From positions 2,480,001 through 2,544,000 of the forward strand of contig NZ_CP076853.1 of the NCBI RefSeq assembly GCF_018987265.1: 64,000 bases of DNA, given 5' to 3'. The notes beneath the pieces are model-generated. The model was not told the origin of the DNA. It saw only the letters and a program-made list of their open reading frames with translations, and did no database searches. The translations under genes were made by a program, and so were the position numbers. How positions within the stretch are numbered: the stretch's first letter is position 1; each line of letters starts with the position of its first letter. The stretch is from Rhizobium sp. WYJ-E13 (GTDB lineage: Bacteria; Pseudomonadota; Alphaproteobacteria; Rhizobiales; Rhizobiaceae). Positions 3,198-54,603 of this stretch are shown here, piece after piece.

Positions 3198-3475
3198 GCT
3201 GAAAACCCGAATGAATGAGACGAATCCGGTTAATGGGATAGCGGCCATGTTAGCGAATTTTCAGTCATTGGGGAGAAAAAGCGACGCGAAGCGCCTGGAA
3301 GCTGCCAGCCGCCCATTAATTTGGCAGAAATGTGTCTCGATGTGGGAAACTGGCACGCTTCATGCATTGCGCGCATGGCTCCCATGAAACAAACCCTCTG
3401 CCACCGCATGACGGAATAGCTATATACAGCGCATCGAACGGTTCGCGACGAACCACCAACAAAGGATTTTTTGAA

Positions 3476-3649
3476 ATGACCGCCTCTCTCTCGCGCTTCG
3501 CTTACAGCAGCCCGGTACAGGCTGGCGAACGCCAGACTGTGCGTCATATCATCGGCGCCCGCCGCCCGCAGCATGAGGACAGCCTCAAGGTGCTTGCAGC
3601 CGGCCAGCGTTCCACGCGCCACAAGGGCGCACCGAGCTACGCATTCTGA
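3476..3649 (+). CDS. Small uncharacterised basic protein, 57 aa
   Basis: A 57-codon frame starts at ATG 3476 with AAAGGAT 9-14 bases upstream. The product (MTASLSRFAYSSPVQAGERQ ... STRHKGAPSYAF) is basic and soluble, with no signal or membrane segment and no domain I recognise. It is not a DUF1127 protein, the usual companion of anti-Shine-Dalgarno RNAs in Rhodobacter. Its stop is only 7 bases from the first of two CCUCCUCC-loop hairpins and a strong terminator, so coding region and structured RNA probably share one transcript. A TATATA at 3421-3426 could be a -10 element, but I see no matching -35. Coding status rests on the ribosome binding site, codon use and context. Confidence 0.7.
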   Translation: MTASLSRFAYSSPVQAGERQTVRHIIGARRPQHEDSLKVLAAGQRSTRHKGAPSYAF

Positions 3650-3656
3650 GCTTAAA

Positions 3657-3800
3657 GCCTTTCCGATCCTCCTCCCTCCACCGGAAAGGCCTATCGGAAT
3701 GCAGTAGAGCCCGCTCGAGCATCTCCTCCTCCTTCGAGCTCGCGGGCATGACCGGATTTAAACGCCGGTTTAAGGCGGTGTCACTGACACCGCCTTTTTT
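3657..3800 (+). ncRNA. Candidate small RNA with tandem anti-Shine-Dalgarno hairpins
   Basis: Two consecutive hairpins follow the 57-aa ORF. Hairpin 1 has a perfect 9-bp stem (3657-3665 with 3682-3690) and a 16-nt loop containing CCTCCTCCCTCC. Hairpin 2 pairs GCCCGC (3709-3714) with GCGGGC (3742-3747), plus an inner TCGA/TCGA stem and a loop containing CTCCTCCTCC (3723-3732). A rho-independent terminator closes the unit (3774-3800). Exposed CCUCCUCC loops resemble the alpha-proteobacterial anti-SD small RNAs (the 'cuckoo' RNAs such as Rhodobacter CcsR, and rhizobial alpha-r14/NfeR1), which can pair with mRNA ribosome binding sites. The family link is inferred from loop sequence and architecture only. 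The 5' end is unknown, and the RNA may be processed from the ORF transcript. Confidence 0.65.
3774..3800 (+). terminator. Rho-independent terminator after the 57-aa ORF and its small RNA
   Basis: GGCGGTGTCA (3774-3783) and TGACACCGCC (3785-3794) form a perfect inverted repeat followed by six T (3795-3800). It terminates rightward transcription just before the convergent prmA. Confidence 0.9.
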
Positions 3801-3836
3801 CTGCCTGTATTCCTGGGAAAACGCGCGTAGAAGAGA

Positions 3837-39972: not shown

Positions 39973-40370
39973 ATCGCCAGTTGGCCTGTAAGCCGGGTTC
40001 TGTATGGCTCCGGCGAACCGGAACGTGGCAGCCATTCATCTGGGACAGCGCTTGCACGCTGCCTCACGCAACCCACCCGGATGACTGACCCAGAAACAGG
40101 CCGGAAGGCTTTCGCCAACCGCGTCATCCCTATTCGGTTTTGCTCCCGGTGGGGTTTACCGTGCCATATCCGTTGCCGGAGATGCGGTGGGCTCTTACCC
40201 CACCCTTTCACCCTTACCTGTCATGACAGGCGGTTTGCTTTCTGTGGCACTTTCCCTGAGGTCGCCCTCGCCGGACGTTATCCGGCACCGTGTTTCCGTG
40301 GAGCCCGGACTTTCCTCACCTTACCGCCTTTCGGCATTGGTAAAGCGCGGCTGCCCGGCCAACTGGCAGG
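39973..40370 (-). ncRNA. rnpB: RNase P RNA (bacterial class A)
   Basis: Read leftward, the RNA opens with GCCAGTTGGCC (40367-40357), which pairs with GGCCAACTGGC (39986-39976) at the 3' end to form helix P1. Conserved core elements are present: GAGGAAAGTCCGGGCTCCAC (CR-I), ACAGAAA in the CR-IV region, and the 3' 'AACCCGGCTTACAGGCC' (CR-V region). It is the catalytic subunit that matures tRNA 5' ends. The ends are estimated to within a few bases. Its position next to mraZ is usual in Rhizobiaceae. Protein frames called in this stretch are artefacts. Confidence 0.95.
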
Positions 40371-54198: not shown

Positions 54199-54427
54199 AA
54201 TGATTATGCTGCAGTGCGCCATTCTTCCGCCAAAAGCATGAATCGTGACTACCGGATTGTAACGGATCGTTAAATTTTGAGAGCGGATTTTTCTGATTAT
54301 ATTTCAGTGGCTTATAGGATTGCTGTTAGACTTATCCACTATCCTCTTCGGCAGCGCAGCACAAGAAGCGCTTCCCAACCAACACATTTCCGACATATTA
54401 TGAGCCGGTTAGCGCGAGGAGGCAGAC

Positions 54428-54505
54428 ATGGGACTTACGCAATCCTTGAATGTCCTGTTGGTCAGTGCAGCGTTCGCATTCGTCGTGTCCATGCTCTTCA
54501 TTTGA
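54428..54505 (+). CDS. Small hydrophobic membrane protein, 25 aa
   Basis: A 25-codon frame starts at ATG 54428 behind a strong GAGGAGG (7 bases upstream). The product is mostly one hydrophobic helix: MGLTQSLNVLLVSAAFAFVV then SMLFI. It is far below the size found by standard gene callers. A bidirectional terminator follows about 65 bp after the stop. The 229-bp upstream gap is AT-rich and may hold a promoter (TTGAGA-N17-TATTTC near 54278-54306). No function known. Support: ribosome binding site, composition and self-contained position. Confidence 0.6.
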   Translation: MGLTQSLNVLLVSAAFAFVVSMLFI

Positions 54506-54570
54506 GCCGATGCGAGGCGTCAAAAACTGAGATACCTACACTCCTGAATAACAAATAACCCCGAAAACTG

Positions 54571-54603
54571 AAAAGCGCATGCCCCGCCCGGCCATGCGCT
54601 TTT
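54571..54603. terminator. Bidirectional terminator between the 25-aa gene and metF
   Basis: AAAAGCGCATG (54571-54581) pairs perfectly with CATGCGCTTTT (54593-54603) around CCCCGCCCGGC. It gives a U tract in both directions and serves both the rightward small gene and the leftward metF (stop 31 bp away). Confidence 0.85.

Follow-up and report, generated by a model that had tools for sequence, protein, structure and literature searches.

A same-strand locus in Rhizobium sp. WYJ-E13 (within a 64,000-nt stretch of DNA, hereafter the window, to which coordinates refer) is likely, in our assessment, to produce a dual transcript under LsrB-type control, which would encode a diverged microprotein and carry an anti-Shine-Dalgarno (anti-SD) RNA that represses mRNAs in trans. 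What seems to endure at this locus as its functional part is the RNA: in many related soil bacteria it persists with its putative promoter box, the tiny gene having changed or gone. The open reading frame (ORF), the loop motifs and the terminator hairpin can all be read on the + strand of one short stretch, with a divergent M24 aminopeptidase P gene (pepP) on one side and a convergent prmA on the other. The features of the locus are as follows.

3363..3376, + strand: LysR-type box TGCATTGCGCGCAT (TGCR-N6-GCAT), running into GCATGGCTCCCATG; read from the sequence, of the type published for LsrB at PnfeR1
3420..3425, + strand: predicted -10 element CTATAT, from the box-to-hexamer spacing in the named loci (below)
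about 3432, + strand: inferred transcription start
3440..3454, + strand: candidate leader hairpin GGTTCGCGACGAACC, read from the sequence, with similar inverted repeats seen by eye in the aligned Rhizobium rows
3461..3466, + strand: ribosome binding site (RBS) AAAGGA of the small ORF, read from the sequence
3476..3649, + strand: 57-aa ORF of 57 codons, apparently a diverged relative of a DUF1127-like small protein; 33 homologues
3637..3649, + strand: 5' arm of the outer stem P1, CTACGCATTCTGA, made of the final codons and stop of the ORF; fold and folds of 30 loci
3657..3690, + strand: hairpin 1, with CCUCCUCCCUCC in the loop at 3666-3681; folds and covariation
3668-3679, + strand: loop 1 motif CCTCCTCCCTCC, read from the sequence
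3694..3707, + strand: 3' arm of P1; fold, and helix 1 of the covariation analysis
3709..3747, + strand: hairpin 2, with CUCCUCCUCC in its loop; folds and covariation
3723-3732, + strand: loop 2 motif CTCCTCCTCC, read from the sequence
3750..3770, + strand: hairpin 3, in which the anti-SD motif is absent; fold, and both-sided changes in 5 of 6 pairs
3772..3800, + strand: intrinsic terminator (hairpin 3772-3796, six-T run 3795-3800); sequence, fold and covariation

Elsewhere in the window, Rfam models mark an RNase P RNA (39973-40366, - strand, 328.7 bits) and the Rhizobiales sRNA Atu_C9 (54407-54602, + strand, 160.2 bits).

A conserved RNA structure begins within the coding region

A sequence-only reading of this locus had described a 57-codon ORF, two hairpins exposing CCTCCTCCCTCC and CTCCTCCTCC and a terminator on one strand, and all of these elements are present. 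The region 3650-3802 folds at -59.8 kcal/mol (z -5.04), and a fold lengthened by 21 nt into the ORF reaches -74.0 kcal/mol (z -6.35); in each case none of 200 shuffles was as good. The picture of tandem hairpins drawn in that reading holds for both hairpins but has to be amended around them. The fold already begins at 3637, within the coding region, where positions 3637-3649 pair with 3694-3707 to form a 13-bp stem around hairpin 1; an extra, motif-free hairpin occupies 3750-3770; and exact CCTCCTCCC is found in loop 1 only, loop 2 being CUCCUCCUCC, without an exact CCUCCUCCC. When 3650-3760 was shuffled 2000 times by mononucleotide, a simple control that takes no account of dinucleotides, no shuffle combined two CCTCC-bearing hairpin loops with two CTCCTCC.

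Both loops are kept in close relatives, a point on which the sequence-only reading had staked its proposal. Free folding, compared by eye, returned P1 with hairpin 1, hairpin 2, hairpin 3 and the terminator in 30 of 30 Rhizobium loci, and gave two CCTCC loops in 65 of the 74 listed named loci; at least one exact copy of CCUCCUCCC is present in 55 of these 74 rows, and two copies in one. The free folds of the 30 Rhizobium loci and the two-loop count in the named rows are more independent support for the structure than the covariation counts, which come from an alignment fitted to that structure. Across the 72 distinct named rows listed in this alignment, 92.6% of cells are paired and 37 of the 48 pairs have changed on both sides, with 513 cells of both-sided change against a mean of 143 when shuffled and 64-130 when slid. 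P1, whose 5' arm is partly made of codons, shows both-sided changes in 12 of 12 pairs, with 87.6% of its cells paired. The third base of the last-but-one codon of the ORF (Ala in most) is paired with the 3' arm in all 30 Rhizobium loci, as GC in 12, GU in 10 and AU in 8.

Spread of the RNA in Rhizobium and related genera

Using a covariance model built on 30 Rhizobium loci, we detected the RNA at E<=1e-5 in 148 of 148 Rhizobium genomes, those of the model included. Among 199 genomes drawn across the family, 37 carry it at 56 bits or more (4 of the 37 lie within the genus); matches at E<=0.01, weak and antisense-terminator matches among them, were obtained in 70, and the remaining 129 had no match at E<=0.01 in this search, in which the model is Rhizobium-based and the filters are strict. 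In an order-wide draw of 199 genomes the model matched 4; three of these belong to the genus, and the fourth, which is 58% complete, gave 31.8 bits. The model found no RNA in three genomes of one other genus of the family. One match set with antisense-terminator matches was left out of all counts. The source genome has one strong copy, after which the next matches are its own antisense terminator and then a 21-bit match (L071); the latter, considered as a second copy, was taken as chance, and the loop motifs are absent from it as printed.

A pattern scan of named genomes returned at least 117 stretches, and the 80 listed ones were given to the covariance model, which matched 74 of them (the named loci of this study); the other six are pattern matches from MAGs that belong to other phyla. 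Part of hairpin 2 and the TCCTCC of loop 2 were prescribed by the pattern, so the constancy of these parts in the named set is by selection. The RNA is present in S. meliloti 4H41. A synteny search in Rhizobiaceae, which had been proposed along with the original description, places the RNA usually between pepP and prmA: in the 74 listed named loci, convergent prmA lies no more than 600 nt away in 68 and pepP no more than 800 nt upstream in 59, some of the remaining loci being cut by contig or locus edges.

The RNA is retained where the ORF is shortened or missing

A homologous ORF was found in 40 of the 74 listed named loci and not found in the other 34. With L175 excluded because it has only 13 nt upstream, 33 of the 73 assessable listed named loci keep the RNA with no homologous ORF found, and these include loci of S. 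meliloti 4H41, Sinorhizobium/Ensifer, Shinella and Pararhizobium. The upstream box is found in 31 of the 34 listed ORF-less loci, and the median distance from box to RNA in listed named loci is 114 nt without the ORF (31 loci) versus 266 nt with it (35 loci). In a tree built from the PrmA proteins of 67 listed loci out of 74 (those with PrmA longer than 200 aa), the state of the ORF changes 4 times, 3-4 times in bootstraps and at least twice by well supported branches; since the ORFs are homologous, losses would be likelier than repeated gains.

In L026-L030, as read from the alignment, the ORF stops ahead of its usual end and the P1 arm AGCTACGCGTTC is still kept; one row of this type carries ATCTACGCGTTC at the arm, and the four listed named rows of this type have a 46-aa ORF that ends before P1. 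The C-terminal SYAF of the microprotein (window 3635-3649) is probably kept for the RNA stem and not for the protein, because, across L001-L030, the same bases persist in the loci where the ORF stops earlier.

These loci bear on an alternative explanation, in which the hairpins form a cis-acting 3'-UTR element that stabilises or terminates an mRNA and the small protein is the real product. The common strand, the overlap of the ORF with the stem and the purifying selection in the N-terminal half of the ORF (see below) are what such an element would lead one to expect, but the RNA is kept in the 33 loci above without a homologous ORF, and the loops remain C/U-rich while compensatory changes occur in the stems of hairpin 1. 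The RBS of the ORF itself is an unlikely target for these loops, since it is merely AAAGGA. We consider the 3'-UTR explanation improbable and favor an RNA that acts in trans.

The small protein is a diverged relative of a sister-genus family

The window protein has 33 homologues, assigned to Rhizobium wherever an organism is given, and the 57-aa protein of Rhizobium sp. BK316 (L159) is identical to it. A profile of the window family finds the ORF in 9 of 151 genomes and 5 of 109 genera, with six of the genomes outside Rhizobium. The sister-genus ORF, which occupies the same place as the window ORF, is homologous to it over all 57 residues. When used as a query, the sister protein retrieved 158 homologues, with Neorhizobium, Ciceribacter, Hoeflea, Pseudorhizobium and others among the 120 listed; 4 of these 120 are named DUF1127 and two are named DNA polymerase clamp, and because both names are used the source names are weak evidence.

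Pfam and NCBIfam searches with the window protein gave no match, and no DUF1127 signature is detectable in it. Alignment of the window and sister families with hhalign gave 97.5% over 57 columns with a score of 55.4, compared with at most 17.7 in 100 column shuffles. The sister family in turn scored 28.5 against the five DUF1127 proteins of the source genome (at most 19.05 in 100 shuffles), while the direct comparison of the window family with DUF1127 scored 10.6, within the shuffles. Pfam DUF1127 matched 1 of 28 sister proteins, with an E of 0.41, and the unrelated ARMC9_ARM matched 5 of 28 with a best E of 0.014. Judged by profile, the sister ORF moderately resembles DUF1127, at a level below the Pfam threshold; the DUF1127 link of the window protein would run via the sister family, and we place moderate confidence in this second step. 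The earlier statement that the companion protein is not DUF1127 is thus borne out for the protein itself, which lacks the signature, but less so for its lineage, given its full-length homology to a DUF1127-like sister ORF at the same place. The suggestion of a separate small-protein and RNA module fares less well, as the locus resembles a known pairing of protein and RNA that has diverged.

The ORF is under purifying selection, which is strong in its N-terminal half: among Rhizobium ORFs of exactly 57 codons (30 distinct of 34), codons 1-26 have a dN/dS of 0.083, and codons 27-50, where the sister proteins bear the DUF1127-like signature, one of 0.461. The predicted structure of the window protein, obtained with only 12 close rows, has a mean pLDDT of 54.8 and no secondary structure; that of the sister protein has three helices (pLDDT 82.3) and no PDB match at E<=0.001.

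A putative LysR-type promoter precedes the ORF and RNA

The predicted -10 element, CTATAT, begins 57 nt past the start of the TGCATTGCGCGCAT box. The motif TGCR-N6-GCAY occurs no more than 420 nt upstream in 66 of the 72 listed named loci with at least 300 nt available, versus a background of 3.9% in 1170 random windows. Of the 70 box matches from the listed named loci, 55 have their best -10-like hexamer at 57 or 58 nt past the start of the box, a count made without a shuffled control. LsrB is described as an activator of nfeR1, where its site is TGCA-N6-GCAT at -72 to -60 (PMC10746234); relative to the inferred start, TGCATTGCGCGCAT would be an LsrB-type box placed as upstream of nfeR1, about 60-72 nt before the start. 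VtlR is reported to activate abcR1 in Agrobacterium and Atu1667, a small A. tumefaciens gene of unclear nature that may or may not correspond to this locus (PMC7486931), as well as AbcR2 and three DUF1127 genes in Brucella (PMC12595884). GCATGGCTCCCATG is one base off the VtlR box GCAT-N3-TG-N3-T proposed in PMC7486931. At the position where the window has GCATGGCTCCCATG, the promoters of L002, L003 and L004 have GCATGGCTGCAATG, which fits that box. The two-loop RNA is absent from the 420 nt adjoining the other GCATGGCTCCCATG-like sites in the genome (L077, an exact match, and 14 with one mismatch), in a search where the control pattern also matched, 2+3 times.

The four ar14 sRNA genes of the source genome vary in this arrangement. 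In L219, the box is followed 58 nt on by CTATTT as the best -10-like site; in L218, a DUF1127 gene followed by ar14, TTATAT at 58 nt is equalled by the hexamers at 56, 60 and 61; and L216 and L217 have their best -10-like site at a distance other than 57-58 nt. Overlapping the LysR-type box of the window, at 3351-3365, is TGGCACG-N5-TGC (GG-N10-GC), an element that resembles the sigma-54 consensus. A degenerate sigma-54-like element accompanies 20 of the 27 strict boxes of the 30 Rhizobium loci and 13 of the 65 listed named loci with a box, and a second, sigma-54-like promoter at the locus is possible.

A model for the dual transcript

In the model that we favor, a LysR-type (LsrB/VtlR-like) promoter would drive a single transcript of some 365 nt, from about 3432 to 3800, which would encode a 57-aa microprotein of DUF1127-like descent. 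The 3' part of this transcript would be the structured anti-SD RNA, with the end of the coding region as its 5' arm, and the active RNA could be either the full transcript or a processed piece of about 160 nt. By analogy with the published NfeR1, whose loops are described as silencing ntrB (PMC10746234), the two C/U loops should base-pair in trans with other mRNAs at their ribosome binding sites and reduce translation of these mRNAs. Since the stop codon sits in stem P1, a terminating ribosome would have to open this stem, and translation of the ORF might in this way be linked to how the RNA folds or is processed.

One could also suppose that the RNA imitates the 16S rRNA 3' end and, instead of acting on selected mRNAs, broadly buffers ribosome binding sites or a CU-binding protein. 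The loops do resemble the 16S anti-SD sequence, and they carry little else for selectivity, but NfeR1, a related RNA, has defined mRNAs as its targets (PMC10746234), and we consider a mimic of this kind very improbable compared with an RNA that represses mRNAs in trans.

More speculatively, and as an idea that we entertain without favoring it, the locus may represent a small-protein gene in the course of becoming a gene for a regulatory RNA, seen at several stages, with the rewritten Rhizobium peptide as a new, stop-codon-coupled partner of the RNA. The stages would comprise a DUF1127-like ORF with the RNA (Neorhizobium, Agrobacterium and others), a rewritten ORF in which strong selection is confined to the N-terminal half (Rhizobium), an early-stopping ORF that, in R. 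lusitanum and relatives, has left its former end solely as an arm of the RNA, and, in Sinorhizobium and Shinella, the RNA by itself. Such a gradation among related loci, where the RNA persists and the protein changes or is missing, offers a direct test of what the protein adds to the RNA and bears on the role of DUF1127 microproteins beside anti-SD RNAs.

Comparison with known anti-SD RNAs

The Rfam models for ar14 (RF02344, gathering cut-off 58.8 bits) and CcsR1 (RF02791, 65.3 bits), which the sequence-only reading had nominated for a covariance search, gave no match in the window at gathering or at E<=10, although these models do recover four ar14 genes above the cut-off at other places in the source genome (L216, L217, L218 and L219; the four scores, in descending order, are 117.3, 111.1, 104.9 and 65.1 bits). 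No Rfam match was obtained for L001 or L167 at E<=0.1. One of the ar14 genes in the source genome lies behind a true DUF1127 gene, and another lies about 500 nt upstream of a different DUF1127 gene.

Cuckoo RNAs are described as having 2-4 adjacent hairpins with CCUCCUCCC in every loop; the window RNA has two adjacent hairpins and the exact motif in one loop. PMC3927594 (section 21), for the related models, and PMC10253847 support this definition. It could be argued that the locus is an ordinary member of the ar14/CcsR (cuckoo) family and nothing new, as it has the same loop core, the same type of promoter box and a DUF1127-linked ancestry, and with the ar14 model the sister locus L061 reaches 39.3 bits, short of the 58.8 needed. 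We regard ordinary membership as unlikely in view of the lack of a match at E<=10 where the ar14 genes of the source genome score 65-117 bits, the two motif hairpins instead of three, the exact motif in a single loop and the built-in end of the ORF. Because there is no Rfam match and the exact cuckoo motif is confined to one loop, the window RNA is, on sequence grounds, filed as a new variant that would work like ar14/CcsR (cuckoo kind), and not as a member. The broader proposal of an anti-SD RNA module of the cuckoo/NfeR1 kind is supported by the loops and their conservation. The result is a candidate sRNA gene that escapes every Rfam model, yet occurs in every one of the 148 Rhizobium genomes and in S. 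meliloti 4H41. We did not find the locus in the rhizobial sRNA literature, neither prmA nor the aminopeptidase being mentioned in the main texts of PMC2873474, PMC2881028 and PMC2245857, and an earlier listing under some sRNA number is quite possible.

Among described systems, AbcR1/AbcR2 (alpha-r15) are LsrB/VtlR-controlled anti-SD RNAs according to PMC7143759, PMC10746234 and PMC7486931; this family has no Rfam match in the window at gathering, and the likeness drawn here is one of description. The ar14/NfeR1 RNAs of Sinorhizobium and relatives likewise consist of anti-SD-loop hairpins and a terminator, and TGCR-N6-GCAT is found upstream of all four source-genome copies, as here. They are described as having three hairpins, each bearing CCUCCUCCC (PMC10746234), with T after the final one in L216 and L217, whereas the window RNA has two motif hairpins with the exact motif once, a plain hairpin and a plain terminator, with the end of an ORF inside the RNA and no Rfam match. 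The closest arrangement within the source genome is L218 (G000:C2:832400-833600), where a small ORF is followed by same-strand anti-SD hairpins and the box lies upstream of the ORF, as in the window. In L218, however, the ORF is a true DUF1127, the RNA scores as ar14 above the cut-off, and about 180 nt separate ORF and RNA, with a terminator-like inverted repeat and T run, so that two transcripts may be made.

The CcsR1-4 RNAs and CcaF1 of Rhodobacter (a CIN1-type locus) also comprise a small protein gene followed by anti-SD RNAs. Their promoter is described as RpoHI/HII-dependent in PMC10253847, whereas the window locus has a LysR-type box. A single transcript has been published for CcsR/CcaF1 and is predicted for the window locus. 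The window protein does not score as DUF1127 and its stop codon lies inside the RNA stem, in contrast to CcsR/CcaF1, while an apparent DUF1127 ancestry of the protein is common to both loci.
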